DNA of 41,266 nucleotides, taken from NCBI GenBank assembly GCA_903907925.1, contig CAIVQB010000036.1, positions 1 to 41,266 on the forward strand, read 5' to 3'. The DNA comes from an uncultured Verrucomicrobiota bacterium (lineage in GTDB: Bacteria > Verrucomicrobiota > Verrucomicrobiia > Limisphaerales > UBA9464). Below, one piece after another: positions 1-35,492 of the stretch (positions within the stretch are counted from its first letter, which is position 1; every line of letters starts with the position of its first letter). The position numbers were made by a program, and so were the translations under genes. The notes beneath the pieces are model-generated. The model saw nothing but the letters and a program-made list of their open reading frames with translations. It had not been told where the DNA came from and made no database searches.

Positions 1-114
1 CCAGCCTCCAGATTCCACGTCACTCAGACACAAGCCGCCGACTAGTCGAGCCCGCCGGCGTGCTGAGAGCAGAAAGCTCGCGCCGACGGGCGGGTGGACT
101 CCCCATTCCTCGAA

Positions 115-324
115 TCACCCACACAAACTCATCAGGAGCCGAATGTTGGTAGTTGTATCGTTCTCCATCGGAGATCCCCTGAGCCACACAGCAAGCGCGG
201 CCTTTCCACCGGACTCCTTGTAAGCGGTGAGCCCATTGCTGACGATTGGTGGCACGCCTGTTTGTGCGTGAACTGAGATGGTGAAGCAAAAAGCGGCGAC
301 GAATGCGAATATGATCGTTTTCAT
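115..324 (-). CDS. small secreted protein, possibly truncated
   Basis: A 69-residue protein starting MKTIIFAFVAAFCFTISVHAQ, which is a clear Sec signal peptide with cleavage expected after the AHA-like site near residue 19. I chose the ATG at 324 because it begins this peptide; an in-frame TTG further upstream would only add a hydrophilic extension. The mature part is about 48 residues and contains GLTAYKESGGKAALAVWLRGSPMEND in its middle before an early stop. I recall longer (about 130 residue) verrucomicrobial secreted proteins with a similar stretch of the form 'W-L-x-G-S-P-x-E' continuing into a beta-rich domain, so this copy may be cut short by a frameshift or decay; that is inference. 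Function unknown. It lies 107 bp upstream of the start of nothing obvious and is separated from the giant gene's end by a short AT-richer gap. Confidence 0.5.
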   Translation of the reverse strand: MKTIIFAFVAAFCFTISVHAQTGVPPIVSNGLTAYKESGGKAALAVWLRGSPMENDTTTNIRLLMSLCG

Positions 325-431
325 AGTGAACCTGTGTAGTTGATTAACATTGAGCAAGGCAATGGGGTTGTATCTAATCATTTGATATTTGAAATTGAAT
401 TGTGGCGAGGAGATGGATGGGGCTCGATCCT

Positions 432-3400
432 TCAATTCCCGTCGTTCAACGGCTGTGTTGAACGCAGGTAGGCGAAGAGGTCGCGGACTTCCTGATCCTT
501 GAGGCCGCCCAGAAGTCCCTCGGGCATCAGTGAACTGCCGGCCGGCTCCAGTTTCAGGATTTCGGAACGGGGTAGGGGTACGGTCTGGCCGTCCGGGGTC
601 CGCAGCACGATGATCTGAGTGTCTTTGTCGGCCAGAAATCCGGTGAGGTTTCGTCCATCCCGAGTTTCGACGGAGAAGCTTTCATAACCCTCTCGGATCT
701 CGGCATTGGGATTGATCACGTTCAAGAGCAGGCTGCCCAGGTCCGAACGTTGGTAGGTGGTGAGGTCCGGGCCGATTTCAGCGCCTTTTCCGAACAGTTT
801 ATGGCAGACCCCGCATTGGGCCATGAACAGTTTCTTGCCGGTGTAGGGGCTTCCGGTGGTCAACGAAATGACCTCGGAGAGCCTCCCGATCTCGTGTTCC
901 AGTTCCGCACTCGTTGCCTGCCGGATATTGGGCCACAGCTTCGCGGTGAGTTGCGCGAGTTCGTCGCCGGGCATCGATTTGATTTTCCGCACGGAATCCG
1001 CTGGTACGAGGCTTTTTGGGAGGCGGCCGGAATCCACCGCACGCAGCAGATCGAGCGCCAGCGTCGGTCGACTGGTCAGCAAGCCCAGCGCCGCGGGCTG
1101 CAATGGGACGGGAAAGGTCGGAAACTGGGTGAGGATTTCCGAAGCGATTTCGGGCGAGGCGTATAGTTGGAGCGCACCCAGGGCCGCCCGGCGCAACTCA
1201 ACCTCCCGCGCATCACGAACCACTGCCAGCAGAACCGGAACCGCCGACGGCTGCCGGGTTTCTCCAAATACCTGGATCAACTGAAGGCGCTGGGTCATGT
1301 CTGTGGATGCAGAGCGAACCAGTTCGAGAGCCTTCTCCACGGCCGCTGGCCGGCCGCGGCGGGCACCGATCATCACTGATTCACCGCCGGCGCGCTCCAT
1401 CGCGGTCAACAATTCCTCGGGCAATCCCACCAGCGGGCGTCCCTTGAACGCTTCCTCAAATCCCTGGGTGAGACGGGCCGTCTCGGTGGGGCCCGGTGAC
1501 AGCGCGAACAGGCGGGCGCAGGTCAGGAGATCCTCACGCCGTCCGGTCGCCGCGAACCGCCGCATCAGACGCGACAGGATGTGACTTTGAACCATCGGCG
1601 CTCTCCACAGTTCCCGGTCTGAAAACAGCGCCAGAACCGCTTCCCGGTCGGTCGCGCATTTTTCCTCGATCGCCCACCAGAGCATCAGGGGTTGGCGTGC
1701 ATCGCCGGTGTCGGCATCGCGGGCCAGCAGGGCGCGCACGAGATCCAATCCCTCCCGGGCGGGCAGTCGACGCGCGCTTGCGGCCAGTTGAGATCGGACT
1801 TCGATGTTGGGCTCAGTGGACGCCAGATCCGTCAATCGACGGCTGATCGGTGCCGAGACACGTCGCTCATCGCCCAGCAATCGGACGGCCCACGCCCGGA
1901 TCTGAGGATGCGGATGGGACAGCGCCTTCTCCGCCGCGGCGTCGGACCACTGTCCCAACCGGTACAAGGCCCAGAACGCCTCGAGCGGCGTGTTCGACGT
2001 TTCGGGTCCGCTCAACATTTGCTGGAGAGCCGGTACCACGGATGAATCCTGGCGTTCGGCGAGAAGCTGGAGCGATTGCTGGCGGATGAACCGGTTGGAG
2101 TTCTTGAGCTGATTTACCAGGGCGTCGGAACGCGCTGCCGACAGATCGAGAGCCTGGACTGGTTTCGCGGAACGAGGCCGGAGTCGATAGATTCGCCCGT
2201 TCGACGCATCCATCTGGCCTTCGTGATTGCGGTAGTGGTTGACCTGGCGGTCGTACCAATCGCAGACGTAGATCGCGCCATCGGGCCCCAACTTGATGTC
2301 CACCGGTCGAAACCACTTGTCATCGGAGGTCACCGGGTACCCGAGATCCCGGGTGCGAAAGCTCGATCCCTCGGCGGTGATCTCGCTCATCACGATCCGT
2401 CCCTGCAGCGGTTCCACGCCAAGCAGTCGGCCTTGATAGACCTCACCCAAAGCTTCGCTGTCGTAGATCAGGAAGTTATGGGTGAATCGGTCCACATCTG
2501 GGTGGGGCATTTGCGGGAAATAGCCGAAGGCGTATGGATTGGACAATGGGCCGTGCTTGTCGAATCCCTTCTGGAGATAGGCACCCTGTTGATAGTGAAA
2601 TCCGCGGGTGTTGCCGCCGTTGTGCCCGCTGAAGATCCGGCCGGCGGAATCCAGCTCCAGCCCAAACGCATTGCCGCCGCCTTCGCTGAAGATTTCATAA
2701 ACCCGCCGTTGGGGATGATAGCGCCAGATGTTCTGGCCCTGCGAAAACATGGGCTTCGGCTGGATCGGTTTTCCGTCCGCGCCGTAGACCAGAATGTTGC
2801 CGGTGACGGTCGAACCCTGGCATCCGTAAAGCCACCCATCCGGTCCCCAACGCAGTGAGTTGGCGACCGAATGAGTGTCCTCCAGGCCGAATCCGGACAG
2901 CAACACCTGCGGATCTCCGTCCGGCACGTCGTCATGATTGCGGTCCGGATAGAAGAGCAGGTACGGCGGATTGAGAACATAAACGCCGTCCGCACCGAAG
3001 GCGACGCTGGTGGCGATATTGAGGCCGTCCACAAACGTGGTGTGCTTGTCGAAGACGCCATTGCCATGGGTGTCCTCGTGGATGGTGATGCGATCAGCCC
3101 CTTTGAAATGATTCGGAGGGGGAGGCGGAACCTTGTCATAGACGGCGCGCCAGAAGTTGTCCCGGCTCACCATCTTGAGTCCTGCGGGGTGCGGGTATTG
3201 GCGGTATTGAACCACCCACATACGCCCGCGTGCGTCAAAGGTCAGGAATACCGGTTGGGCGACGATGGGCTCACTCAGAACCTGTTCGAACACCAAATCC
3301 TCGGCCACATGAAACTTCTTTGCCGATTCCGCCGGGGTCATCGGTCCGAGTTGTCCCTCCTCGGATTTCTTCGGACCGCGGGCGAGGGTGTCGGCTGCGA

Positions 3401-5474
3401 TGACGGTGGTGAATCGACCGGCGACGGGAGGTGTCTCGGTGCCTGGCTTGGCCCATGCGAGTTCGTTGCCGGTGCGGAATTGCCAGTCACCGGAAAGGGC
3501 AATGGCCTGGTTCCCGACCCGCAGATAGGGAGCAACACCTTTGAATCCGCCCCGACCGCCGTTGTCGAAAACTTGAATGGCGATGAGATTCCAGAGGCTT
3601 GGTCGGAAAGCCGTGTTTCCCAAGTTGTAGGCTTTGGGTTGATCCAATCCGCTGGCGAAGTTCGGCGGAAATGCGCCGGCCATCCCAACCTTCTGGCCGT
3701 TGACATAGGCCGCGTGGGCGTCGTCAACGGATTCTACCACCAGTTCGGCCGTTCGTCCGGCCCAGTCGGCCGGGACTTGAACCCAACAGCGGTACCAGGC
3801 AAATCCGTCGTATTGAGACAGGGCGCCGCCGGAATTCTCATCCCAGGTGCCGGGCACCTTCATGGGATGCCAGTCGGCCGCGTGATCCACCTTCTTCGGG
3901 ACTGCCGGCGGGATCATGTCGCCCACCGACCAGAGAACTCCGTTGAGCAGCAAACGGCGGAAATCCGGGTCGCGAAAATCATCCGGACTGCCCAGCGAAG
4001 TGTAGAACACCCGACGATTGTCGGCCGTATTGACCCACGCCACGGGTTCCACCTCCGAGGTTCCGTCCTCGGTTCGTCCGTTGAGGAGCGGGGTGACGGT
4101 GTTCTTCAGTTTTCGGCTGCGATACAAATGGGACTTGGAGGCGAACTCCGACTTCAACCCGGTGAGGATCGGATGGGCTGCGGTTTCAGCGATCTGCCGG
4201 ACCACAGTGGCCTTTCCCGGACCGGTGCCATAGTGATCCTGATAGTCGGCTCCGATGATCTCCTCGTCGAAATTGGGCCAGGTCTGTTCGGCGGGCGCTG
4301 TCTGGCCGCGCAGTTCAAAGGCGTGGATAGCGGTCCGGATGCCGGCGACAGGCTTTCCGGCGGCGATATGGGCCCGGATGGCGGCCATCATGCCCGCGGG
4401 CGGGGCGCGCCGGCGAACGCTGATCACCAGCAGATCGGCCTGGGGTATGATCTCCCAATTTTTAAAATCGCCGTCTCCCTCACGAGTGGAGGCGGTCACG
4501 TAACTGATTTTGTATCCGCGCCAGGCCAGTTCCTTGCGGGCGAACTCGGGCAGCGTTTCCCATGTGTGATACTCGTTTTCACCGATCACGAAAACGATGT
4601 GCTTCGGATGATCCGCCTTGAATCGAAAGGGCTCGCCGCCGAGGAGATCGACGCTGGTGATGCTGGGACACCAGTATTGTTCGATGTGTTCGGTGACCAA
4701 CTCGGTCCCGCGGAAATGGGAAACCCATGGTGATTTCCGGTGATTGTACATGCTGTCGGTCAGGTCGCGCATCAGAACCACGTTCTGTCCCTGGGTGACC
4801 ATCTGCCGTATTGAAAAGGGCCGTCCCAGTACGCACATATTGATGTGAACGCCCATCACGATGACGTTGGTGATGCCGCGTTGGCGCATCAGGTAGTAGG
4901 CCTCGGTGGAATCGGTAATGGCGTCGCCGTCCTGAATCTCCAGCCCGGGATGTTGTCGGGTCCAAGCCTTGTAACTCGGGCAATCGGGGCACCCGTCGCA
5001 GCCGCCGTCGGAATCATCAATCGGGAGGGCCGGTTCGGTGCCTCCATTCAAGGAACACCAGCCTTGCAACGGGATCCGGGTGGCCACTTTCGGGGCGGAT
5101 TGAGCCAGTTTCCGACCGGGGTGATCCTTGTAGAAATCCATCGTGTCGCTGGGGCAATGCAGAATCAACATGCCGCGGGCGCGTGCCGCCTTGATGACTT
5201 CGTTCATTCGCGGAACGAGTTCCCCCACCCGTTCAGTGGCATCCGGGCAGTGGTGTTTGTCCCACATGTCGCAGATGACGATGGCGGTGCGGGAGGGCTC
5301 CCATTGAAGGTTCTTTTCCACCACGTCGAACGCGTTGGTGTCCGACCGGGATCGCACCCGTGCGCGTCCGTGAAGAGTGATGGGGTCGCCGAGCGCGGAA
5401 GCGGTCAGGACGAGAAAAAGGGCCGTCCAGCAACCGCCCCAAAACCGTCGGGAGAGCAAAGGGAGGGACTTCAT
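432..5474 (-). CDS. giant exported isochorismatase-ThuA-PVC dehydrogenase-HEAT-cytochrome c fusion
   Basis: A 1680-residue secreted protein. The ATG at 5474 is preferred over one 36 bases upstream because it directly starts a signal peptide (MKSLPLLSRR then a hydrophobic core). Domain order by eye: isochorismatase-like cysteine hydrolase about 50-275, with Asp69 in the strand VICDMWD and Cys214 in GVHINMCVLG; ThuA-like domain about 290-520 (HIVFVIGENEYHTWETL); a beta-sandwich resembling the sugar-binding domain of glycoside hydrolase family 2, about 535-670; PVC-type membrane-bound dehydrogenase beta-propeller about 725-1135; HEAT repeats about 1150-1500; and cytochrome c about 1540-1675 with CGVCH at 1554-1558 and a probable Met ligand near 1650. 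PVC dehydrogenase plus HEAT plus c-heme proteins are typical of planctomycetes and verrucomicrobia and are thought to oxidise sugars or sugar derivatives in the periplasm. The front-end hydrolase and ThuA modules are the unusual part. The substrate is unknown. Confidence 0.88.
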   Translation of the reverse strand: MKSLPLLSRRFWGGCWTALFLVLTASALGDPITLHGRARVRSRSDTNAFDVVEKNLQWEPSRTAIVICDMWDKHHCPDATERVGELVPRMNEVIKAARARGMLILHCPSDTMDFYKDHPGRKLAQSAPKVATRIPLQGWCSLNGGTEPALPIDDSDGGCDGCPDCPSYKAWTRQHPGLEIQDGDAITDSTEAYYLMRQRGITNVIVMGVHINMCVLGRPFSIRQMVTQGQNVVLMRDLTDSMYNHRKSPWVSHFRGTELVTEHIEQYWCPSITSVDLLGGEPFRFKADHPKHIVFVIGENEYHTWETLPEFARKELAWRGYKISYVTASTREGDGDFKNWEIIPQADLLVISVRRRAPPAGMMAAIRAHIAAGKPVAGIRTAIHAFELRGQTAPAEQTWPNFDEEIIGADYQDHYGTGPGKATVVRQIAETAAHPILTGLKSEFASKSHLYRSRKLKNTVTPLLNGRTEDGTSEVEPVAWVNTADNRRVFYTSLGSPDDFRDPDFRRLLLNGVLWSVGDMIPPAVPKKVDHAADWHPMKVPGTWDENSGGALSQYDGFAWYRCWVQVPADWAGRTAELVVESVDDAHAAYVNGQKVGMAGAFPPNFASGLDQPKAYNLGNTAFRPSLWNLIAIQVFDNGGRGGFKGVAPYLRVGNQAIALSGDWQFRTGNELAWAKPGTETPPVAGRFTTVIAADTLARGPKKSEEGQLGPMTPAESAKKFHVAEDLVFEQVLSEPIVAQPVFLTFDARGRMWVVQYRQYPHPAGLKMVSRDNFWRAVYDKVPPPPPNHFKGADRITIHEDTHGNGVFDKHTTFVDGLNIATSVAFGADGVYVLNPPYLLFYPDRNHDDVPDGDPQVLLSGFGLEDTHSVANSLRWGPDGWLYGCQGSTVTGNILVYGADGKPIQPKPMFSQGQNIWRYHPQRRVYEIFSEGGGNAFGLELDSAGRIFSGHNGGNTRGFHYQQGAYLQKGFDKHGPLSNPYAFGYFPQMPHPDVDRFTHNFLIYDSEALGEVYQGRLLGVEPLQGRIVMSEITAEGSSFRTRDLGYPVTSDDKWFRPVDIKLGPDGAIYVCDWYDRQVNHYRNHEGQMDASNGRIYRLRPRSAKPVQALDLSAARSDALVNQLKNSNRFIRQQSLQLLAERQDSSVVPALQQMLSGPETSNTPLEAFWALYRLGQWSDAAAEKALSHPHPQIRAWAVRLLGDERRVSAPISRRLTDLASTEPNIEVRSQLAASARRLPAREGLDLVRALLARDADTGDARQPLMLWWAIEEKCATDREAVLALFSDRELWRAPMVQSHILSRLMRRFAATGRREDLLTCARLFALSPGPTETARLTQGFEEAFKGRPLVGLPEELLTAMERAGGESVMIGARRGRPAAVEKALELVRSASTDMTQRLQLIQVFGETRQPSAVPVLLAVVRDAREVELRRAALGALQLYASPEIASEILTQFPTFPVPLQPAALGLLTSRPTLALDLLRAVDSGRLPKSLVPADSVRKIKSMPGDELAQLTAKLWPNIRQATSAELEHEIGRLSEVISLTTGSPYTGKKLFMAQCGVCHKLFGKGAEIGPDLTTYQRSDLGSLLLNVINPNAEIREGYESFSVETRDGRNLTGFLADKDTQIIVLRTPDGQTVPLPRSEILKLEPAGSSLMPEGLLGGLKDQEVRDLFAYLRSTQPLNDGN

Positions 5475-5552
5475 GCCGGGAGGATGACCAATCCCATCTG
5501 AAAATCCCAAGCGAACTCTTTGTTTGTTGAATCGGGCTACCCCGCGTTAGAA

Positions 5553-5688
5553 CGCGTCTGAAAATCAGGAAGAGACCTGCGGCAAAGCATTTTGTCTTCT
5601 GCCAAGGCGACGAAGTTCGAGCATCCCCAAAGTGGGCTGCTCCCTCGTTGCGCCTCGCCATCCAGCCCTTTCCTCAATTTCAGACGCG
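5553..5688. repeat. 136-bp intergenic element with 20-bp inverted ends
   Basis: The left end at 5553-5572 and the right end at 5669-5688 are inverted copies matching at 17 of 20 positions; the outer eleven (CGCGTCTGAAA) are identical. The inside is not obviously coding. The element sits in a 519-bp gene-free stretch upstream of the giant fusion gene. The size and inverted ends suit a MITE or a REP-like verrucomicrobial repeat, but no second copy is in the window, so the family assignment is inference. Confidence 0.5.
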
Positions 5689-5789
5689 CTCTTGGCCGGA
5701 TCGATTCAGTAGAACTGGGCCTTCACCACAGATTCATACTGATGGAGGCAGATCCTTGCGGATTCGGTGCCAGATTCTCCCTTCCCCAC

Positions 5790-5897
5790 GGTAGGGCGAA
5801 CCTCCCGGTGAGCCGCGGTGGACGGACGGATTCCGCTTCGCAGCGCGGCGTCCCTCGTCCTGCCACGCACCCGGCTCGGCGGGAGCCTTGCCCTACC
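5790..5897. repeat. 108-bp palindromic intergenic repeat
   Basis: The arms at 5790-5815 and 5872-5897 are inverted copies matching at 21 of 26 bases. The outermost eight (GGTAGGGC / GCCCTACC) are perfect, as is the inner GAGCCG. The loop contains a further short GGACG/CGTCC pairing. It lies between the divergent starts of the giant fusion gene and the end of the TANGO2-like gene. GGTAGGGC-type palindromes are, as I recall, common between genes in Verrucomicrobiota. The rest of 5475-5993 shows no supported gene. Confidence 0.6.
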
Positions 5898-5993
5898 GGT
5901 GAACCGTACGTGGTTTCTACTGAGATGTTCCGGCTAGGCACCGAGACCGGCCTTTCTTGCCGTCCGAGGAGTCGTTGCCGTGCGAAGGCTCCG

Positions 5994-6731
5994 TCAGTTC
6001 TCGCCGGCCGGAATTAATTCGAGTGCGGAATGGATGCCGGGACGGCCCTCGCAGGGACAGCCCGGCTGATAGAAAACCGCTCCACCTGCACCAATGACCG
6101 TGATTTCAGAATAGCTTACCGTTCCGGCGTCTTCCCGGTGAACACAATGGGAAAAGGGGCCGCGCTTCGGAAGGTGCGACCCATGGAGGGCGCGAAGCCA
6201 AGTGTGATCACCCGCGTCGGTACGCCTGGAAAACCGGCGGAAAACATCAGATCGAACCTTCTGGGAGGCCGGTTCATCCAGGCCCGATGAAATCCATTGT
6301 CGAGGTGCCCACGGATGAGACAAGGCCTTGAGTTCCTTGCCGTCCCATCGCCATTCCATGACCACTCGAAGCCGATCGAACAGTCCCATCACCCGGAAGG
6401 GTTTGAGCCGTTTCAGGGGCAACGCCCCTAGATAGGCATCCGCGTCCACCGGTTTGCTGGTCGACAACAACCATTCCACCACCCGCCCGCGCGAGATCGA
6501 TCCGGCCGAGGGCGGGGGCTCGACGGCGTACCAGTTGATCAGGGCGAACGCGACTCCCGCGTCGTTGAGACCGATCCAGGTGCCACCTCCGGCCTCCACT
6601 GGACAGAGCGCCCGGCGTCGACTGGCCTGGCGTTGAATCGGTGGGAGGGCAACCGGCCTCGACCAGCGTTCGTCCCGGTTCATCCCCAGTCGGAATCCCG
6701 AGCGGCGCGGCCAAAAAGTTACGGTACACAT
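5994..6731 (-). CDS. TANGO2/NRDE family protein
   Basis: A 245-residue protein. It starts MCTVTF, with the invariant Cys2 of the NRDE (TANGO2) family, followed by GMNRDERWSRP containing the family's N-R-D-E motif. The reading frame is open far upstream, but the ATG at 6731 gives exactly the family's N-terminus, so it was chosen. TANGO2-like proteins adopt an Ntn-hydrolase-like fold; eukaryotic and some bacterial members have been linked to heme handling, but no enzymatic reaction is firmly established. No signal peptide or membrane segment is seen. The gene is 41 bp downstream of the DoxX gene on the same strand, so the two are probably co-transcribed. Confidence 0.82.
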   Translation of the reverse strand: MCTVTFWPRRSGFRLGMNRDERWSRPVALPPIQRQASRRRALCPVEAGGGTWIGLNDAGVAFALINWYAVEPPPSAGSISRGRVVEWLLSTSKPVDADAYLGALPLKRLKPFRVMGLFDRLRVVMEWRWDGKELKALSHPWAPRQWISSGLDEPASQKVRSDVFRRFSRRTDAGDHTWLRALHGSHLPKRGPFSHCVHREDAGTVSYSEITVIGAGGAVFYQPGCPCEGRPGIHSALELIPAGEN

Positions 6732-16517: not shown

Positions 16518-18110
16518 TCAGCGTTGCGCGGCGGTTATGAACCCTGCGTTCGTCCAGTTGGCGAGGTCACCCCAGAAGCCGTCGCCGGCGTCGGTCGAGG
16601 CCAGGGTGATCCGTTTCGACCCGGCGGGGATCGGAACATCGAATCGCCAGGGTTCCAGTCCGATGCGCGAGGTCGGACTTTCCGCCACCAGCTTCCCGTC
16701 GATGAACACCCGGAAAATCACGCTGGGATGCATGGCGATATTGCTGCCGTTGTTCACGTCGAGGATTCGATCATCCATTCCGGCGAGCGCCACGAACCGG
16801 GTCCAGCCCGGTTGAATCTCGTAGATCAAATGGTTCGGCGCATGGACCCCGATGCCTTGTTCGAACGTGTGGCCGGCGATTCGGAGCGGCTTGCCTTCGT
16901 TGGACAGATTGGTCTGCGGCGGATTCACGCCGGGCGAAAGACGGTGATCGTTGAAGGCGGGCGAATGACCCAACCCGACCCAGCGCCAGGGTTTGATGCT
17001 GCCCAACGCCACTTCGGGTGGCGGCGGCATCACGCCCAGACGGGCAGCGTACGATTCGGAAATCCGCGTCACCCGCCGACCCTTCTGAAATGCTGCGGCA
17101 CGGACCGTCGTGGCCCGGTCGAAGTGCAATGGAGTCAGGTACCGCGGGGAGTTCGCGCCCGGTTCCGTTCCATCGAGCGTGTAGTGGATCTCGGCGTCAT
17201 GCGGGCCTGGCTGGGTCAAGGTGACGATCAATTCGTTCTCAAACAAATGCGGTCGTGACCGCGTACCCCAGGGTGCGTGTCGAACCACGTCGACGATCCA
17301 TTCGTCTTTCCACAGGTGATTGCGTCGAAGCGTTTCGGCGAAATCCATAGTCGGCGCGAGATGCTTCTCGAAATGGGCGACGACTTTCGCGGTGAAGTCG
17401 TCGGGCGTCTCGACTCCCGGTTCGTAGCGGCCGTGGGCGTCGGTCAGATCCCGGGACAGGTAGCAATGAAAGCCGGCCTCGGTCATGGCCTTCAATCCGA
17501 TGCTTTTTCCAAGCAGGCAGACTTGGGTGTGGACACCCATGAACACCAGGTGGGTGATGCCGCGCTGCTTGCAAATGGCATACAGCCGGCCGGGATCGTT
17601 CGGCATGAGATCGTCAGTGCCGACGATGAGATCCGGATGCATCCCGTCCCAACCGTAGTTCACGTGACAGCGCTCGGGTCCGCAGGTGCAGCCGCCGCCG
17701 TCGGGGGCGGCGGGACAGACCACATGCGTCACTTGAGGGAGGGGCAGGGGATCGATCGCGATCACTTTTTCGACCATCGGGGTTCCGACGTAGTTGTCGG
17801 CGACATCGGTCGGACAGAGGAAGATCGTCATGCCCTGGGCCCGGGCCACTTCGAGGCAGCGGTTCATCCGTGGCACCAAGGCACCGACCCGCTCGGTCGA
17901 CGTTTTGCACCAGTGATAATTCCACATGTCGACCACGACGATACCGACATGGCGGGGGTCCAGATCCTCCAAAGCCACGGTGGGAACACCGGTCACCGGG
18001 TCCCGTCGTTGCGATTCAATCGTGAGCGCGTTGGCCGCGAGAAGGAGCGCCAGACCCCAGAGCGAAAGGAGCCGGCGAACGAGTTTTTGGAAGGCACCGG
18101 AGGCGTTCAT
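16518..18110 (-). CDS. secreted isochorismatase-like protein with CHB_HEX_C-like and NPCBM modules
   Basis: A 530-residue protein with an N-terminal hydrophobic signal (VRRLLSLWGLALLLAANAL). Residues about 45-255 form an isochorismatase-fold cysteine hydrolase, with Asp61 in VVVDMWN and Cys198 in GVHTQVCLLG, and a Cys-rich insertion at 141-149 (CTCGPERCH). Residues about 290-360 resemble the CHB_HEX_C/Fn3-like module (HYTLDGTEPGANSPRY). Residues about 370-525 are NPCBM-like, with FEQGIGVHAP and a FWGDLANW end, suggesting carbohydrate binding. The hydrolase reaction and substrate are unknown. It is a paralogue, in its first part, of the giant fusion protein's front end (shared TERVG.LVPRMN). 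Its start lies just after the gyrA terminator, so it probably has its own promoter. Confidence 0.85.
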   Translation of the reverse strand: MNASGAFQKLVRRLLSLWGLALLLAANALTIESQRRDPVTGVPTVALEDLDPRHVGIVVVDMWNYHWCKTSTERVGALVPRMNRCLEVARAQGMTIFLCPTDVADNYVGTPMVEKVIAIDPLPLPQVTHVVCPAAPDGGGCTCGPERCHVNYGWDGMHPDLIVGTDDLMPNDPGRLYAICKQRGITHLVFMGVHTQVCLLGKSIGLKAMTEAGFHCYLSRDLTDAHGRYEPGVETPDDFTAKVVAHFEKHLAPTMDFAETLRRNHLWKDEWIVDVVRHAPWGTRSRPHLFENELIVTLTQPGPHDAEIHYTLDGTEPGANSPRYLTPLHFDRATTVRAAAFQKGRRVTRISESYAARLGVMPPPPEVALGSIKPWRWVGLGHSPAFNDHRLSPGVNPPQTNLSNEGKPLRIAGHTFEQGIGVHAPNHLIYEIQPGWTRFVALAGMDDRILDVNNGSNIAMHPSVIFRVFIDGKLVAESPTSRIGLEPWRFDVPIPAGSKRITLASTDAGDGFWGDLANWTNAGFITAAQR

Positions 18111-20913: not shown

Positions 20914-21342
20914 TCAATTGGGACGCGTCACGAGGGACAGACCGATGAAGTCCGACGCGTCACACACTCTCTGGTCACTGCTGCATACTTCCTCGCCGCC
21001 ATGTAGTTCCGCCGTCGCGACATGGATCGCATCCAGCGTCCGCAACGGCACGTTCGGGTGGCACTGGTCAATGACCGCGCCCGCCCGCTCGATCACATGA
21101 CGGGTAATCGGCAGCAGTACAAATTCCTGGTCGCGCACCTTGTCCTGAAACAATCGCCAGCCGGTCATCCGCGCCTGGCGGGAGATCCGCCCCGCCCGTT
21201 CTTTGGCGAGCAGGGCGGAACGAACTTCCGCCACGGCCAATTCCGAAGTGACAACGGCGGAGCCCGCCACTAGCCCATGATAGGCGGCGCTATCCGGCTC
21301 GTGGCTGACCAGTTTGACGATGACGCAGGAATCGAGATACAT
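20914..21342 (-). CDS. vapC: VapC-like PIN-domain toxin
   Basis: A 142-residue PIN-domain ribonuclease toxin. The four acidic residues of the active site are visible: Asp4 (MYLDSCVIVKL), Glu39 (SELAVAEVRSA), Asp104 (LRTLDAIHVATA) and Asp123 (SSDQRV), spaced as in VapC toxins that cleave RNA with Mg2+. The ATG at 21342 starts this domain; the longer open frame upstream is not supported. It follows the antitoxin gene by 5 bp and is followed by gyrA after 15 bp. The likely cognate antitoxin is the Phd-type protein directly upstream; toxicity itself is inferred. Confidence 0.9.
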   Translation of the reverse strand: MYLDSCVIVKLVSHEPDSAAYHGLVAGSAVVTSELAVAEVRSALLAKERAGRISRQARMTGWRLFQDKVRDQEFVLLPITRHVIERAGAVIDQCHPNVPLRTLDAIHVATAELHGGEEVCSSDQRVCDASDFIGLSLVTRPN

Positions 21343-21347
21343 CGTCG

Positions 21348-21683
21348 TTACCAGCCTCGTCCGTCGCGGTCGGCGCGGATGATTTCCTCGGCGAACGGTC
21401 CCTCGGTTTGCACCGGCAGCTTTTTGAGCTGATCCCAGGTGCCGGTGAACACTTTGCGGGCTTTGCCTTCGTTCACCGGCGACAAGACGGCCTTCGGTTT
21501 GCCGTCGCTGGTGATGGTGATTTCCCGCCCGCCCGCCACCAGATCCAGCAACGCCGAAAGGTGCGCCTTGGCCGACCGAACGCTGATACTCGAACCCATG
21601 CCGGGTGCCGTGGCAATTTCGCGCAACACCGCCGGCTCCGCCTCTGGGGAAGCGGTGTATTTGAACGGCGTAATCGGTTTCAT
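21348..21683 (-). CDS. Phd/YefM-type antitoxin
   Basis: A 111-residue protein; the core SISVRSAKAHLSALLDLVAGGREITITSDGKPKAVLSPV at about 32-70 is the DNA-binding domain of Phd/YefM antitoxins. The C-terminal tail (KVFTGTWDQLKKLPVQTEGP...) would bind and neutralise the PIN toxin. The ATG at 21683 adds 28 residues before the core and lies 5 bases from the predicted -10 box, implying a leaderless transcript. The internal ATG at 21599 would give a more typical Phd length, so the start is not settled. It lies 45 bp after the gyrB stop and overlaps no gene. Repression of its own promoter through the palindrome at 21691-21710 is probable from the family's known behaviour. Confidence 0.85.
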   Translation of the reverse strand: MKPITPFKYTASPEAEPAVLREIATAPGMGSSISVRSAKAHLSALLDLVAGGREITITSDGKPKAVLSPVNEGKARKVFTGTWDQLKKLPVQTEGPFAEEIIRADRDGRGW

Positions 21684-21688
21684 GCGAG

Positions 21689-21718
21689 AATGTAGTCACG
21701 CGTGACTACATAAGTCAA
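21689..21718 (-). promoter_or_regulatory. toxin-antitoxin promoter with 20-bp operator palindrome
   Basis: The perfect palindrome TGTAGTCACGCGTGACTACA spans 21691-21710. On the minus strand it lies between a -35-like TTGACT (21718-21713) and a -10-like TACATT (21694-21689), with an 18-base spacer, so it overlaps the spacer and -10. Phd-type antitoxins usually bind such palindromes. The predicted start of transcription falls at the antitoxin ATG. The boxes are read by eye and unproven. Confidence 0.6.
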
Positions 21719-26898: not shown

Positions 26899-27741
26899 AT
26901 GGCCGCCGAGGCGCTCATCATTGTTCCCACCTACAACGAGCGGGACAACCTGCCGCAACTGGTCAAGCGGTTGATGGCCCAGCCGGTCGTGCTCGACGTG
27001 GTCGTGGTGGACGACAATTCACCCGATGGTACCGGACAGATCGCCGACGCGATTGCCGCGACGAATCCCAACGTCCACGTCATTCACCGAAGCGAAAAAG
27101 CGGGGCTCGGCCGCGCCTACATCGCGGGATTCCAGTGGGCCCTCGCCAGGGACTACACCTTCATCTTCGAGATGGACGCGGATTTTTCCCATAACCCGGC
27201 GGATATTCCGCGCTTCCTCGACGCCGCGCGTTCCGGGGATTGCGATCTGGTTCTGGGTTCGCGCTATAGAGACGGCATACGGGTGATCAATTGGCCGCTC
27301 AAACGTCTTTTGCTCAGCATCGCGGCGGCGCGCTACGTGCAAATCATCACCGGCATGACGATTTCCGATCCGACTGGAGGCTACAAATGCTTTCACCGTC
27401 GCGCGCTGGTGGCGCTGGACCTTGAGACCGTCAGCAGCAACGGCTATAGCTTTCAGATTGAGCTGACCCACCGGATTTGGCGGCGGGGCGGGCGGATTGC
27501 CGAGGTTCCGATCGTGTTCACCGATCGTTTTCTGGGGACTTCAAAAATGTCCCGCGGCATTGTCCGTGAAGCCCTGTGGATGGTGTGGAAGCTGTGGTGG
27601 CAAAACGGATTTCGCCGCGGTCCCACCCAGGTCACCATACCCGATTCCGTTTCACCCACGCCGGTTGCCCGGCCTAGTTCTTCCGCCTTAACGGCGACTT
27701 CTCCTCTGGCGGAGTCCAAGGAAGCGCCGCGTCGTTCATGA
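26899..27741 (+). CDS. polyprenol monophosphomannose synthase (Dpm1-like GT2)
   Basis: A 280-residue family 2 glycosyltransferase of the Dpm1 type. ALIIVPTYNERDNLPQLV, VVVVDDNSPDGT (Asp38, Asp39) and EMDADFSHNP (metal-binding Asp93/Asp95) are standard, followed by LGSRYRDG and DPTGGYKCF. It probably transfers mannose (or another sugar) from GDP-sugar to polyprenyl phosphate for cell-envelope glycan synthesis. No C-terminal membrane helices are present, as in the soluble Dpm1 subclass. The ATG at 26899 is preferred over one at 26851. Its last 68 bases overlap the convergent sulfatase gene. Confidence 0.9.
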   Translation: MAAEALIIVPTYNERDNLPQLVKRLMAQPVVLDVVVVDDNSPDGTGQIADAIAATNPNVHVIHRSEKAGLGRAYIAGFQWALARDYTFIFEMDADFSHNPADIPRFLDAARSGDCDLVLGSRYRDGIRVINWPLKRLLLSIAAARYVQIITGMTISDPTGGYKCFHRRALVALDLETVSSNGYSFQIELTHRIWRRGGRIAEVPIVFTDRFLGTSKMSRGIVREALWMVWKLWWQNGFRRGPTQVTIPDSVSPTPVARPSSSALTATSPLAESKEAPRRS

Positions 27742-29047
27742 GCTTCTCCAATCGGGCCACCACCTCCGGGTGACCGGCGGCGAGGTCGTTCTTTTCGGCC
27801 GGGTCGTTCACCAAGTTGTAGAGTTCGATGGAAGCTCCCTCCGCCAGTCGAACCGCTTTCCATTCGCCGGATCGAATGGCGCGTTGATAGCCCTTCTCAT
27901 GGAATTCCCAGTAGAAGTATTCGTGAGCCGCGGTCGGCGGCTTTCCGCGCAGGGTGGTGGCGAATGAAATGCCGTCGGTCTTGACCGGCAGGTTGGTCTG
28001 AAGCACCTCCGCCAGGGTCGGGAGAATATCCCAGAAGGCGACGGGCAGATCGGAGGTGGTCCCCGGCCGGATCTTCCCCGGCCAGCGTGCAATCAGCGGC
28101 ACCCGGATTCCGCCTTCATACAGATCCCGTTTGATCCCGCGCAACCCTCCCGAGCTTTGGAAAAAAGCCGGATCAACGCCGCCTTCCTGGTGCGGACCGT
28201 TGTCGCTGGTAAAGAGGATGAGGGTGTCCTCGTCGATCTTTCGCGCCTTCAACTGTTCCATCAACCGCCCCACCGTCGCGTCCAACCGCGAGATCATCGC
28301 CGCCTTCGCTTTTTCCGGTCCCGGCCACGGACGGTCGCGGTAGATTCCCAAAGTAGGTACCTCCATGCCGTTGGTTCCCATTTCGTTGTTCGCGTGGGGA
28401 ATGATCGTCGGAAAATAGAGCAGGAACGGTCGATCCTCATTGATCCGGATGAAATTGGTCGCCGCCCGCTCAAACCAGTCGGGTGCGTAGTCACGACGCT
28501 GCCCACCCTGATTTCCCGGCAACAACCAAGTCTGACCGTTCCGCCAGAGAAACGATGGGTAGTAGTCGTGCGCGTGGTTCTGGTCCAGGTACCCGAACCA
28601 TTCGCCAAACCCACGGCGGTTGGGCTCACCGGTGCTCCCTTCCCATCCCATGGCCCATTTCCCGAACACTGCCGTTTGATACCCGGAACGTTTCGCGAGA
28701 TCGCCCAGGGTGAAATCCTCCGGAGTCAACGGCACTTGAACATTGCTTCGAATCCGTCCGTGGCCGGAATGAAGACCGGTCATCAACGAGCAGCGGCTCG
28801 GGGCGCAGACCGTGTTGCCGGCGTAGGCCTGGGTGAACCGGATGCCTTCGGCGGCCAATCGGTCCAGATTGGGCGTGAGGATCTGCTTCTGGCCGTAGCA
28901 TCCGAGCTCGCCATACCCCAGGTCGTCCGCAACGATCAAAATGACGTTCGGTGTGGTTGCGGTTCGACGAGGATTGGTTTCGCCTGTCACGACATCCAGC
29001 CCCGCCCAAACGACCAGCCAGAGAATAACGAGTCGGTACAGCCTCAT
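27674..29047 (-). CDS. Cys-type arylsulfatase
   Basis: A 457-residue secreted sulfatase. A signal peptide (MRLYRLVILWLVVWAGL) is followed by NVILIVADDLGYGELGCYGQ with metal-binding Asp41 and Asp42, and the FGly site Cys81 in CAPSRCSLMTG. The C-x-P-S-R form means Cys-type maturation by formylglycine-generating enzyme or an anaerobic sulfatase-maturing enzyme; neither is in the window. The C-terminal half carries the usual WDILPTLAEV block. The ATG at 29047 overlaps the LarA-like stop by 4 bases (ATGA), so the two are translationally coupled. The likely role is desulfation of sulfated polysaccharides. Confidence 0.93.
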   Translation of the reverse strand: MRLYRLVILWLVVWAGLDVVTGETNPRRTATTPNVILIVADDLGYGELGCYGQKQILTPNLDRLAAEGIRFTQAYAGNTVCAPSRCSLMTGLHSGHGRIRSNVQVPLTPEDFTLGDLAKRSGYQTAVFGKWAMGWEGSTGEPNRRGFGEWFGYLDQNHAHDYYPSFLWRNGQTWLLPGNQGGQRRDYAPDWFERAATNFIRINEDRPFLLYFPTIIPHANNEMGTNGMEVPTLGIYRDRPWPGPEKAKAAMISRLDATVGRLMEQLKARKIDEDTLILFTSDNGPHQEGGVDPAFFQSSGGLRGIKRDLYEGGIRVPLIARWPGKIRPGTTSDLPVAFWDILPTLAEVLQTNLPVKTDGISFATTLRGKPPTAAHEYFYWEFHEKGYQRAIRSGEWKAVRLAEGASIELYNLVNDPAEKNDLAAGHPEVVARLEKLMNDAALPWTPPEEKSPLRRKN

Positions 29048-30318
29048 GTCGACGCGAGATAGGGAATGGTGAGCGGGCCCTGGGGCAACACTGCGACCCG
29101 TGCAGCGGGGCCGAGCCGGTCGAGTTCGGCACGCACCGCGGCACCGATGTCTGGACACGGAGTGAGATGCGCCGCGCGAAGCACTTCCACGGGCATGGAA
29201 GAATGAAGCTGGACCCGGGCGCGCCGTTGGATCAATGACTGGATCTGCGCCTGCCATTGTTCCGGTCGAACAAATCCCGGTGTGGCCAACAGCGTGAGAA
29301 TCTCTTCCGGCGAACCTCCCTCGCGCAACAGCCGGTCGAACGGACTTCCGGCCGGCACACCCTCGCTGCATTCCGCGGCGAGGATCAGCAATCCATCGGG
29401 AGCCAGGATGCGCGCACCGGCGCTCATTCCTTTGACGCCCTGATACAGATTCATGTCCAGCGGGTAACCGGAGTTGGTGGTCACCACCACTTCGTAGGGC
29501 CGGTCCACTCGTTGCATCGCGGCGGTCCGGACATATTCACGACCGACCTGATGGGCCTCGACCAGGTCGCCGGCGAAAACGCGGGTGATTTCCCGGTGCT
29601 CATTGAGGGTGACGTTGAGAAGAAAACTCGGTCCCACGCGAAGGGCGATCTCCAGCAACTCGTCCCAAAGCGGATTGCCTTCGCAGATGCCGAAGGTGGA
29701 ACGGGAATCGTTCAGGTTGTCGACCCCGTGATTGCTCATCACGGTTTCCAAATGGGCGACTCCGGGCATCAACGCCTTGGGTCCGCCGCTGAAGCCCGCG
29801 AAGAAATGCGGCTCGATGAATCCGGTGAGAATCCGGACATCCGCCTCGACCGCGATACGATTGATCAGCGCGGGCACGCCGGTGCGGGTCGTGCCCAGCG
29901 CGACGCAGGCCGCGTGGTTTTCGGGTTCGTGATTCACCACCCGCCATCCGGCCACGACTTCGGGCGTGAGCATCTTTTCCAGTTCGGCCTTTGTGTTGGG
30001 ACGATGAGTGCCCAATTGATTCAACAGTGTCACTTGCTCGCGCCGGACGCCTGCCCCCTCGAGGAACGCCAGGAGCCAGGGGATGAGCCGGTGATTCGGA
30101 GTGGCGCGGGTGATGTCGGTGAAGAGGATGACGATCTTGGCGTTGGGCTTGAGCCAGTCGCGAAGCGGTGGACATCCAATCGGGTGCTCGAGTGATTCCA
30201 GCACCGCGCCCCGTTCATCGGCCAACCCGGATCGGAACGAAGGTTCGATCACCGTGATCCGGCCGTCCGGGAATTCCACCGGCAGGCCGCCACGTCCGTA
30301 GGCGAGATTGACGTTCAT
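29044..30318 (-). CDS. larA: LarA-family nickel-dependent racemase
   Basis: A 424-residue LarA-like enzyme. Residues matching Lactobacillus plantarum LarA are present with the right spacing: His105, His171 in EPHFF, Lys181 in GGPKALMPG, which would covalently hold the nickel-pincer cofactor, and His197 in SNHGVD. Asp68 and Arg71 in FTDITRATPNH also fit. The family racemises or epimerises 2-hydroxy acids and related compounds by hydride transfer; which acid is used here cannot be read. Cofactor synthesis genes (larB, larC, larE) are absent from the window. It is coupled to the sulfatase gene by a 4-base overlap, so it may act on an acid released from the sulfated substrate. Confidence 0.88.
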   Translation of the reverse strand: MNVNLAYGRGGLPVEFPDGRITVIEPSFRSGLADERGAVLESLEHPIGCPPLRDWLKPNAKIVILFTDITRATPNHRLIPWLLAFLEGAGVRREQVTLLNQLGTHRPNTKAELEKMLTPEVVAGWRVVNHEPENHAACVALGTTRTGVPALINRIAVEADVRILTGFIEPHFFAGFSGGPKALMPGVAHLETVMSNHGVDNLNDSRSTFGICEGNPLWDELLEIALRVGPSFLLNVTLNEHREITRVFAGDLVEAHQVGREYVRTAAMQRVDRPYEVVVTTNSGYPLDMNLYQGVKGMSAGARILAPDGLLILAAECSEGVPAGSPFDRLLREGGSPEEILTLLATPGFVRPEQWQAQIQSLIQRRARVQLHSSMPVEVLRAAHLTPCPDIGAAVRAELDRLGPAARVAVLPQGPLTIPYLAST

Positions 30319-30398
30319 GTTTTAACGACTCTAGCGGGTTGAAGCGTTGAATCCACGGGAATGATGCCTCCAGAAACGGCCTCGCTGAATTCAGCAAA

Positions 30399-30815
30399 TC
30401 AAAACAGCCCGCCGGGGTGATTCGTGACGGCCATGACGATCACGCTCATCCACCCAAGGCAGAGGACGGAAGCGGCGAACCAGCCTGCTCGTTTCCAACC
30501 CCGAAGAACGTTGGGCGACCAATAGGACTTTCGCAACCCGATGCGAAAAACGAGAAACACCCAAGCAGCCAACAGCGAGAGGCCGCCTTCGAGTGCCGTC
30601 GCTCGAACTGCGGGGCTGGCACCGGATTGTTCCAGATGAGCCATCAACTGAGTGAAACCGATCAGGGAGCCTTGAGACAAAACCGCGAGGAACAACGCCT
30701 GGCTCCAACCCAGCAAGCGAGCGGCACCGCAGGCGATGAAAAGGCCACCGGGCAGAAACAAAATGGCGAGACCCCAGGCCCAAGTGCGGAGTGGACGCGG
30801 TGCTGGAACGACCAT
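30399..30815 (-). CDS. small membrane protein, unknown
   Basis: A 138-residue hydrophobic protein I do not recognise. About four membrane segments are visible: roughly 13-32, 39-58, 75-92 and 108-128. A second overlapping frame on the same strand (30391-30831) is polar and arginine-rich and is rejected in its favour. It lies 21 bp downstream of the gluconolactonase gene stop on the same strand. No family assignment. Confidence 0.6.
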   Translation of the reverse strand: MVVPAPRPLRTWAWGLAILFLPGGLFIACGAARLLGWSQALFLAVLSQGSLIGFTQLMAHLEQSGASPAVRATALEGGLSLLAAWVFLVFRIGLRKSYWSPNVLRGWKRAGWFAASVLCLGWMSVIVMAVTNHPGGLF

Positions 30816-30836
30816 GGGGAGGGCGATCCAAAGCCT

Positions 30837-31901
30837 CTAGAAACCCGCACCCCGGGTGCGGGTGGCGATTCGCAGTAGATGGTGATTGGACGTGATGTAG
30901 AGCGTTGAACCGTCATCGCCCCAGGCGCAATTGCCGGTGGGATTCCCGGTCACCAAGGTTCCGAGGTGCCGGCCTTTCGGGCTCACGATCAGGACGCCGC
31001 CCGGACCCGTGGTCCACAGATTTCCGGCGGCATCCACCTTCATCCCGTCCGGCAGACCGGGGCGATCGGCGCGGACCAGTGGTTTTGCATCGAAGAAGAC
31101 CCGGCTGGATCCCAGGCTTCCGTCGGCCTTGACCTCAAACGCCTTCACGATGGGCTCTGCCGGATCGCTTTGCGTGACATAAAGAGTGCGGTGATCGGGC
31201 GACAGGGCGATGCCATTGGGAAAGGTCATCCCACCTTCCACGAGGACGACTTCCCCGGACGGGCGCCGCAGAAACACTCCGTTGTACGCCAGCTCCTTCA
31301 GCGGGCTTTTGTTGACGCCTTTGTGCGCGTACGGCGGATCGGTGAAGTAAAGGTTCCCCTGGCGATCGAAGACCAGATCGTTGGGGGAATTGAATCGTCG
31401 GCCTTCAAAGTACGTGATCAGCGGCTCAAAGGTTCCCGTCTTGCCGTCGTGTTTCACCAACCGCGAAATCTTCCGATCGCCGTGCTGGCAGAGGACCAGG
31501 CGTCCGGCGGAATCCGTGGTCAATCCATTTGAGCCGGGTTCCTGCCAGTCGATCCCGGTTCCGGTGTAGCCGCTGGGTTCGAGAAAAACACGGACACCGT
31601 CGCGCTCCGACCAGCGGTAGATGCGGTTGGCCGGAACATCGGAGAAGACCAATGCCTTCTCCCGCTTCAGCCAGGTGGGTCCCTCCGACCAGGTGAATCC
31701 CTCGGCGAGGTCCTCCATCCGCGCGGTCGGCGCCAGGACGGCGTCCAGCGCTGGCGCCAGCCGCTCGATGGTGCCGTAGGACGGGTGCGGTAGTCCGGAT
31801 GCCGAGATGCTCGGTACGGTCGAGGCCGCTGAAATCCGGGCGGAGAACGAAACGAACGCGCAGAAGCTGACGGCCACGAGGGACGACAAGGACGGGGTCA
31901 T
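30837..31901 (-). CDS. secreted SMP-30/gluconolactonase-like protein
   Basis: A 354-residue six-bladed beta-propeller of the SMP-30/gluconolactonase family. The signal peptide runs MTPSLSSLVAVSFCAFVSFS to about residue 26. Conserved metal-site parts are EGPTW, NSPNDLVFD and GLPDGMKVDAAGNLW. The family hydrolyses sugar lactones in the periplasm, consistent with the sugar-oxidising genes of the window. The final codons coincide with a GC-rich palindrome at 30843-30863. The small membrane protein gene follows by 21 bp. Confidence 0.9.
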   Translation of the reverse strand: MTPSLSSLVAVSFCAFVSFSARISAASTVPSISASGLPHPSYGTIERLAPALDAVLAPTARMEDLAEGFTWSEGPTWLKREKALVFSDVPANRIYRWSERDGVRVFLEPSGYTGTGIDWQEPGSNGLTTDSAGRLVLCQHGDRKISRLVKHDGKTGTFEPLITYFEGRRFNSPNDLVFDRQGNLYFTDPPYAHKGVNKSPLKELAYNGVFLRRPSGEVVLVEGGMTFPNGIALSPDHRTLYVTQSDPAEPIVKAFEVKADGSLGSSRVFFDAKPLVRADRPGLPDGMKVDAAGNLWTTGPGGVLIVSPKGRHLGTLVTGNPTGNCAWGDDGSTLYITSNHHLLRIATRTRGAGF

Positions 31902-35000: not shown

Positions 35001-35492
35001 ATCCGCCCCGACGCTCACCGCGAAGGTGGTGACGCCGGCCGGCAATTGCAGGAAGGCGACCCCTTCGGTTGAAAAATTCAGGGGGTGGCTGCCGGTGCCC
35101 GGGATGCCCGGAAAGAGATTGGGGCTGAAGGTGAACAGGACATTTCCGTCGGGGTCGGTGATGTCAACGCTGTTGCCATCGACCTCGAAATCGAGGGTGT
35201 CGGTGGCATAACTTCCATCCGCGGCGGGCCCGGGAAACGCCTCATTGGGGATCAAAACACCGTCGGCATCCACCAGGGTTTGGTTGAGCTGCTTGATGGC
35301 GCGGAGCAGGCTGTTGCCCACGACTGCGGTTTCGGGAGCCTGGGCCGTGCGAACCACAAATCCCCGCACGCTCGATGAGCCGAGCGGGAGCGCCAGTGAG
35401 GCGGAGAGATCGTTGGTGGCCGCTTCCGTGCGGTTCAAGGCGAGGGACAGGACAACTCCGGTGAGGAGGATGGGAATGGTGTTGGATTTCAT
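32019..35492 (-). CDS. secreted protein with three LamG-like tandem units
   Basis: A 1157-residue exported protein. The signal peptide is MKSNTIPILLTGVVLSLAL to about residue 25. An N-terminal part of about 377 residues, with aspartate-rich turns such as DVNDDD, is followed by three 239-residue units, each starting VTGQWDF and containing LLQISSTNNAEGDDGDLFWQ and DWTANQGLDNPRRALLPYAV. They look like LamG/concanavalin-like lectin folds for carbohydrate or surface binding. The last about 70 residues (SILLGAGQVTVSWPLSVSGYTLE to QFFRLRN) form the short beta-domain seen at the C-terminus of many verrucomicrobial exported proteins. No catalytic motif was recognised. A perfect terminator follows. Confidence 0.85.
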   Translation of the reverse strand: MKSNTIPILLTGVVLSLALNRTEAATNDLSASLALPLGSSSVRGFVVRTAQAPETAVVGNSLLRAIKQLNQTLVDADGVLIPNEAFPGPAADGSYATDTLDFEVDGNSVDITDPDGNVLFTFSPNLFPGIPGTGSHPLNFSTEGVAFLQLPAGVTTFAVSVGADRTDVNDDDSYVAFVGQNPRDYFATPVGAYERLGVRAFNSNQHSENTWSLNAPVAGIYPFRLLHWQTGHGANLEFYTIDSTTGDRILVNDSSDPRAIKAFRDSNSSVATGAYLAEVSPAPGSAGNSATAAVSALIVDGSTTVATSDVKLYLNGTAVAPQGLSKTGGNLSLRYDPNAARTDKANLVRLEYKDSAGTSRTNSWTFDIIVGAGSSTQVTGQWDFDHGDLSATVGKPLAYLDGPTGLTQQGSVYGTCSALGIDLIGGKDAKIIKIPGDLKRQIGLIMDHGIKPNGGGTRVNQYTIIYDIYVGTSGPGAASLLQISSTNNAEGDDGDLFWQGSNFGQVSGGYNGTGAFTAGAWHRVSAAYDEAANPPVVTKYVDGVKQDDWTANQGLDNPRRALLPYAVLFGDGDHDERRDMFVNSIQIRAGKLSDAELYALGGPTADGIPQVIPSSTVTGQWDFDAGNLAASIGKPLQYLDGPTGLTQQGTLYGACSDLGVPLIAGKDAKIVKIPGDLKREIGLIMDHQIKPNGGGTRVNQYTIVYDIYVGTSGPGAASLLQISSTNNAEGDDGDLFWQGSNFGQGSGGYNGTGAFTAGAWHRVAAAYDEAANPPVVTKYVDGIKQDDWTANQGLDNPRRALLPYAVLFGDGDHDERRDMYVNSVQIRAGKLSDVQLALLGAPDGGPIPVILPDSTVTGQWDFEFGNLAATVGKPLQYLDGPTGLTQQGTVFGLCSVLGVPLIGTNDAAIMLVPGDLKREIGLIMDHQIKPNGGGTRVNQYTIAFDILVGTSGPGAASLLQISSTNNAEGDDGDLFWQGSNFGQGAGGYNGTGAFTAGAWHRVIAAYDEAAKPPVVTKFVDGIKQDDWTANQGLDNPRRALLPYAVLFGDGDHDERRDMYVSSIQIRSGKLSDAEMAAMGAPDGAALPLAITVQPAPALSILLGAGQVTVSWPLSVSGYTLEGSPSIGSPAWVAVPGVSGNSVTLNVSATTQFFRLRN
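32211..34361 (-). repeat. three 717-bp in-frame tandem units
   Basis: The units are 33645-34361, 32928-33644 and 32211-32927, each exactly 717 bp (239 codons), with no length difference. Units 1 and 2 share roughly 85% of residues by hand count, with changes concentrated at the first 60 and last 25 residues of each unit. Long stretches are near-identical in DNA, suggesting recent duplication or gene conversion. Confidence 0.9.

Follow-up and report, generated by a model that had tools for sequence, protein, structure and literature searches.

A conserved isochorismatase-ThuA-propeller-cytochrome c fusion of Verrucomicrobiota and Planctomycetota with a non-canonical hydrolase-like site and a possible role in glycan processing

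Domain architecture of the protein

The window, i.e., the whole stretch of 41,266 nucleotides analyzed from an uncultured Verrucomicrobiota bacterium, carries on its minus strand (to which all coordinates in this section refer) a gene at positions 432 to 5474, which starts from an ATG at 5474 and encodes, with the stop included, a protein of 1,680 amino acids (P0001) in one intact frame. A longer frame, 432 to 5510, comprises 1,692 codons and starts at a TTG. The N-terminus (residues 1 to 29; 5388 to 5474), read by eye from the sequence, is signal-peptide-like, and judged by this start, the protein is probably exported. It is followed by an isochorismatase-like domain (residues 30 to 290; 4605 to 5387), recognized both by Pfam (PF00857; 33.0 bits against a cut-off of 27, over two stretches) and in the structure model, and by a ThuA domain (residues 291 to 526; 3897 to 4604), which the first-pass annotation had anticipated and which is borne out by its Pfam score (PF06283; 66.8 bits against a cut-off of 33.4) and by its fold. 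Next comes a jelly-roll carbohydrate-binding-like module (residues 530 to 690; 3405 to 3887), whose nearest counterparts are the jelly rolls of the CE20/sialate acetylesterases (phmmer: 9ega, 1.5e-10; 9h4u, 6.3e-10), with Foldseek concurring. This module had earlier been read as a GH2-like binding domain, an assignment that we reject since its score with Glyco_hydro_2_N (PF02837) is 22.8 bits, below the cut-off of 28.

The back half begins with a DUF7133/TIGR02604 beta-propeller (residues 704 to 1105; 2160 to 3365), supported by Pfam (DUF7133; 240.3 bits against 27), NCBIfam (TIGR02604; 240.4 against 122.2), and its fold. It continues with a HEAT-repeat region (residues about 1110 to 1535; 870 to 2147), detected in three stretches by HEAT_2 (PF13646; 49.6 bits against 27.7), and ends with a cytochrome c domain (residues 1540 to 1675; 450 to 857), which scores above the cut-offs of both PF00034 (34.8 bits against 21.3) and TIGR02603 (123.3 against 68.15), matches 7zs0 at 2.1e-9, and contains the CxxCH heme-binding motif in the form CGVCH (residues 1554 to 1558; 801 to 815). 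The chain comprises six modules in all, and its back half is the known PVC dehydrogenase-HEAT-cytochrome c architecture, as had been supposed. In a scan of positions 1 to 6200 of the window, promoter-like (none) and terminator-like (four) sites were not above those in shuffled sequences.

In an AlphaFold2 model of residues 30 to 1110 (pLDDT 76.9, pTM 0.42), compared by Foldseek/VIA, the four front modules take up known folds, namely those of RutB/BiuH, ThuA, the CE20 jelly roll, and the soluble PQQ sugar dehydrogenases; at a pTM of 0.42, the placement of the hydrolase pocket relative to the propeller is not readable from the model. The isochorismatase-like domain modeled alone (pLDDT 95.7, pTM 0.94) is closest, among the chains compared, to RutB (Z 17.9, rmsd 2.9, 172 residues aligned), with BiuH at Z 16.4. 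The ThuA domain matches 4e5v (Z 21.1, rmsd 3.1, 223 aligned) and also 1t0b, and the propeller matches 3a9g (Z 22.8, rmsd 3.5, 283 aligned), 6h7t (Z 22.5), and 2g8s (Z 21.5).

The fusion is a conserved single gene

Among 58 genomes searched, the own genome included, near-full-length relatives with 58 to 66% identity were found in three other genomes of the same family, and the same protein minus the jelly roll is present in many. The isochorismatase profile was matched in 42 of 50 family genomes (E up to 1e-110). The 47 matches listed for these 50 genomes include two paralogues (frames of 347 and 362 amino acids); among the 45 close copies that remain, 33 have frames of 1,225 amino acids or more and 12 have shorter ones, so the halves are by no means always separate. 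In a phylum-wide sample, 3 of 288 genomes match at 1e-40, a count that includes the own genome and comes without the number belonging to its own order. A scan of 84,980 species genomes yielded a best 80 loci, which are not a census; they are titled mostly Verrucomicrobia or Planctomycetes, with a few other labels, and the closest titles are those of Verrucomicrobia/Pedosphaera-type metagenome-assembled genomes. The domain-order search across PVC genomes that the first-pass annotation had called for recovers the same order in Verrucomicrobiota and in Planctomycetota, and its proposal of two halves fused in one chain holds, with the same junction recurring in independent genomes. Hence, the fusion is a genuine single gene common to the two phyla. 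That an assembly error joined two adjacent genes is virtually impossible: the halves do occur as separate frames in some relatives, but the same junction in many independent genomes of two phyla refutes such a merger, and the open frame is under purifying selection.

Of the 50 family genomes, 45 have a propeller of 66% identity or more. When the two halves are scored separately, 41 genomes have both, one has only the front half (G032, which is 70% complete), four have only the back half (G006, G033, G028, and G352, the first three starting at or near contig ends), and four have neither (Fisher p 0.0014, a statistic that ignores the relatedness of the genomes). The fusion and this co-retention suggest that the halves work together. 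Further, all domains are kept by purifying selection: against the same-genus locus L042, Ka/Ks is 0.06 for the isochorismatase-like domain, 0.07 for ThuA, 0.08 for the propeller, 0.17 for the HEAT region, and 0.04 for the cytochrome, and for the jelly roll, which L042 lacks, it is 0.28 against L061, these values being rough since Ks runs from 1.2 to 2.7 and synonymous sites are near saturation.

Domain combinations and evolutionary history

The loci L042 to L161 were sorted by custom profiles; with an isochorismatase score above 300 bits, duplicates removed, and the window excluded, 100 loci were obtained, a set biased toward the window protein since its members were chosen by their match to that protein or to its isochorismatase domain. 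The isochorismatase-like and ThuA domains share a frame in 91 of these loci, and ThuA was not seen in the other nine. A propeller is present as well in 38 of the 91 ThuA-bearing frames (five of the 38 run off a contig end), 12 of which also have the jelly roll. Only 5 of the 53 ThuA-bearing loci lacking an in-frame propeller have a propeller match within the stretch examined, which argues against an obligatory partnership. No conserved operon emerged among 502 clustered neighbor ORFs: the commonest cluster covers 13 loci and the propeller-cytochrome cluster covers 8.

A tree of 90 isochorismatase-ThuA cores, obtained by a quick search, requires 10 changes between the fused and unfused states and 10 jelly-roll changes. 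The full order with the jelly roll occupies one seven-row branch (six rows titled Planctomycetota) and is otherwise scattered among verrucomicrobial rows; the nearest relatives of the window protein in this tree are without the jelly roll. A tree of 65 propellers nests seven unfused members (L047, L063, L066, L069, L072, L073, and L091) within the fused verrucomicrobial branch, as would be expected if they had split off later; this tree has flagged long branches in its outgroup, and its deeper order, including the position of jelly roll-propeller-cytochrome proteins that lack the front half, is tentative.

Two related arrangements were also encountered. The loci L191 to L205 encode a jelly roll-propeller-HEAT-cytochrome protein that lacks the isochorismatase-ThuA half and has about 41 to 45% identity to the back half of the window protein. 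At L077:4570-10209 (minus strand), a 1,290-amino-acid ThuA-propeller-cytochrome frame adjoins a 589-amino-acid protein with a distant isochorismatase-like domain, the same parts thus being distributed over two genes.

The beta-propeller and the heme domain

Sequence relatives of the propeller among PDB chains are absent at an E value of 0.1 in a profile search, with one (2ism) at 0.6. The candidate catalytic residues His868 and Asn935 are present in all 31 sequences compared. The PQQ site of the soluble glucose dehydrogenase sGDH is formed by His144, Arg228, Asn229, Lys377, and Arg408 (residue roles from the accessible text of PMC6881789 and PMC6881810). Of these, the His (with a shift of one residue) and the Asn are kept and the placement of Lys377 is uncertain. 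When the propeller is aligned by profile with distant GSDH sequences (nine recovered of eleven chosen), the place of Arg228 is taken by Gly934, and in the C-terminal Arg pair, Arg1056 is kept and Val1058 stands at the place of Arg408. Moreover, a search found pqqC in none of 24 family genomes; it did find the gene in 2 of 39 genomes overall, with E near 1e-92, indicating that the search was capable of detecting it. In the own genome, no PqqE match exceeded the cut-off. Matches to the PQQ-type GSDH family of propellers number 12 to 23 per genome in the twelve listed family genomes (18 in the own one). The presence of many such propellers without pqqC means that either PQQ is scavenged or the propellers do something else; the cofactor may be taken from outside the cell.

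In the literature searched, a single experiment bears on this domain order: Lac161_ORF7 (AGW45552), a protein with the TIGR02604-HEAT-cytochrome order assigned to Chthoniobacter, was purified and reported to hydrolyze lactose with a Km of 1.8 mM (PMC5342196, accessible text). As this protein has the same order as the back half of the window protein, the "dehydrogenase" label rests on homology. For the LacABC system with DUF1080, it has been proposed that a sugar is first oxidized in the periplasm and the keto-sugar then cleaved (PMC9007349, accessible text), and by analogy, this scheme might carry over to the window protein. The first-pass annotation had envisaged oxidation of a released sugar as such; the absence of pqqC from the 24 family genomes, the Gly at the Arg228 place, and the lactose hydrolysis by a protein of the same order leave this unsupported.

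These observations raise the possibility that the propeller acts as an ordinary glycosidase or lyase and performs no redox step, with the heme and HEAT regions serving in attachment, sensing, or scaffolding and the isochorismatase-like domain being a further sugar-active hydrolase. The activity of Lac161_ORF7 and the lack of pqqC fit this scheme. However, few parts of the protein are as constrained as the cytochrome domain, as its Ka/Ks against L042 attests, and the propeller has the fold of sugar dehydrogenases; we consider the scheme somewhat unlikely.

The active site of the isochorismatase-like domain

Canonical members of this fold use an Asp-Lys-Cys triad, which in the biuret hydrolase BiuH is Asp36, Lys142, and Cys175; the conserved residues of the BiuH active site also include Gln38, Phe41, and Thr179 (PMC5806882, accessible text). 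In an alignment of 105 members of the window protein's clade, the triad Asp (Asp69; 5268 to 5270, minus strand, as are the following) and the triad Cys (Cys214; 4833 to 4835) are each present in 104, the remaining one being a gap. The column of the triad Lys is acidic in 103 of 104 scorable members (101 Asp, 2 Glu, and 1 Trp, with one gap among the 105), and the window protein has Asp188 there (4911 to 4913). The surroundings are altered too: Gln38 of BiuH is replaced by Trp71 (104/105), Phe41 by His74 (104/105, one gap; at Asp+5, 5253 to 5255), and Thr179 by Arg218 (101/105), and further fixed residues are Asp184, Arg236, Asp237, and Asp240 (104/105 each) and His210 (103/105). The column richest in Lys anywhere is 122, with 78 of 105.

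When the clade is aligned by profile with canonical PF00857 proteins, Asp188 falls at the Lys place and a shortened loop follows it; an alignment with two canonical rows agrees. The canonical profile holds 17 of 24 rows, from the own genome and its relatives, one of which is a misread frame (L219), so that column counts use 16 rows. Gln and Phe occupy the Gln38 and Phe41 places in all 16, and the triad Lys lies at a fixed offset in 13, L213 to L215 having a longer loop. The accessible text of PMC5806882 further reports that Lys142 of BiuH tolerates only Arg, with an about 25-fold loss, and that of PMC8849098 reports that Escherichia coli YecD and EntB (Asp-Lys-Gly) retain the Lys though their Cys is replaced by Gly. 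Given the acid at the Lys position and the neighboring exchanges of Gln for Trp and Phe for His, we reject a canonical cysteine amidohydrolase. The earlier description of a cysteine hydrolase with an intact Asp and Cys is thus correct as to the two residues and the fold, but the hydrolase chemistry does not follow, the triad Lys, on which it was silent, having become an acid.

What the altered site might do can be approached by analogy. In BiuH, the Asp, the Lys, and the nucleophile at the corresponding places are within hydrogen-bonding distance, and hence, by extension from that structure, the window protein would be expected to bring together a pair of carboxylates, one thiol, and one imidazole, a set of groups that would be more in keeping with metal binding than with a hydrolase triad. 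One possibility, bold and on balance unlikely, is that Asp69, Asp188, His74, and Cys214 define a new metal-dependent or redox branch of the isochorismatase fold, devoted to sugars and here sharing a chain with a heme domain. Loss of the triad Lys and replacement of the pocket Gln and Phe would also be compatible with a catalytically dead domain retained for dimerization or binding; this is improbable, however, as the domain is strongly conserved along with ThuA, the propeller, and the cytochrome (see its Ka/Ks above) and hardly any of the 105 members departs from the Asp, His, Asp, and Cys.

Association with carbohydrate-active domains

Several partners of the isochorismatase-like domain point to carbohydrates. 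The domain is fused ahead of a GH29 alpha-L-fucosidase at L079:5281-7656 (minus strand) and L080:6105-8534 (plus strand); these came from a Pfam scan of four of the nine ThuA-less loci, which gave two with GH29 and two with nothing else. A paralogue in the window (16518 to 18110, minus strand) has the isochorismatase domain in front of a chitobiase C-terminal/Fn3-associated and an NPCBM domain. Together with the ThuA partnership, these associations make a sugar-related role likely.

This paralogue is the second protein of the clade in the window, with 38% identity over residues 58 to 276. Other features of the window, all on the minus strand, include a row of sulfatase, lactate-racemase-like (LarA), and SMP-30/gluconolactonase-like genes (27674 to 31901), possibly a small sugar-acid cluster; a 1,157-amino-acid protein (32019 to 35492) in which a stretch of about 220 amino acids, weakly matching Laminin_G_3, occurs three times almost unchanged; and a PIN-domain ORF (20914 to 21699) between gyrA-like and gyrB-like genes.

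Proposed function

Taking these findings together, we tentatively propose, at somewhat less than even confidence, that the protein is an exported, modular, periplasmic enzyme of glycan processing, built on a non-canonical isochorismatase-ThuA core, which would carry out an oxidation-assisted cleavage with electrons passing to heme. In such a scheme, the jelly roll would hold a carbohydrate, on which the propeller would act, most likely by oxidation-assisted cleavage, handing electrons to the c-type heme. The ThuA domain might then work on the resulting keto-sugar, and the isochorismatase-like domain could remove a substituent or open the product by means of Asp69, His74, Asp188, and Cys214, rather than an Asp-Lys-Cys triad. 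The proposal draws on the domains and their folds, the conserved fusion, the co-retention of the split halves, and selection; on the sugar partners (ThuA in 91 of 100 loci, GH29, and chitobiase C-terminal/NPCBM), the lactose hydrolysis by Lac161_ORF7, and the LacABC precedent; and on the non-canonical active site. Against it stand the absence of pqqC and the incomplete PQQ site, which leave the redox step without a known cofactor, as well as the rarity of a propeller near the unfused loci (5 of 53) and the lack of a conserved operon.

The scheme of the first-pass annotation, in which an amide or ester is split by a cysteine hydrolase before a PQQ-type propeller oxidizes the released sugar with electrons going to heme, accommodates the invariant Asp69 and Cys214 with the RutB/BiuH fold, the PQQ sugar dehydrogenase fold with its fully conserved His868 and Asn935, and the CGVCH heme site. 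It is nonetheless improbable, since the triad Lys has given way to an acid in nearly all members, pqqC is missing from the family genomes, and, in the distant alignment, Gly and Val stand at the Arg228 and Arg408 places.

Comparison with known systems

PVC genomes are rich in propeller-HEAT-cytochrome proteins, and the own genome alone has 55 matches to some part of the window protein. The back half of the window protein has the same order as the PVC-type heme-binding CxxCH protein (TIGR02604, HEAT, and TIGR02603), which the window protein extends on the N-terminal side by the isochorismatase-like, ThuA, and jelly-roll modules; its likeness to Lac161_ORF7 is one of domain order alone. With the soluble PQQ sugar dehydrogenases (sGDH, Asd, and AA12), it shares the propeller fold and the candidate His868 and Asn935 but differs in the Gly at the Arg228 place, in the lack of any PDB chain matching the propeller profile at E 0.1, and in coming from a family in which pqqC was found in none of 24 genomes. 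With the CE20 acetylesterases (9ega and 9h4u), it shares the jelly roll, whereas the CE20 catalytic domain is not seen. The ThuA domain has the fold and family score of PF06283 (4e5v and 1t0b) and is here fused to the isochorismatase-like domain; the literature searched gave no reaction for ThuA itself. The isochorismatase-like domain has the fold and the active-site Asp, Gly, and Cys in common with RutB, BiuH, and TrtA, from which it differs in the Lys-to-Asp, Gln-to-Trp, Phe-to-His, and Thr-to-Arg exchanges (at the BiuH places), a Cys-rich insert, and its export.

No description of the fusion was found in the literature searched, which consisted mainly of titles and the openings of abstracts and had most subscription journals outside its scope. 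The conserved fusion ties one branch of propellers to a specific isochorismatase-ThuA core, so that learning what either part acts on should disclose the substrate of its partner, and with a Lys-less isochorismatase clade in two phyla, it can be cleanly tested to what extent the fold's chemistry is able to shift. Set against these systems, the window protein is best described as a new combination of known families together with one unusual, perhaps re-tooled, hydrolase clade.
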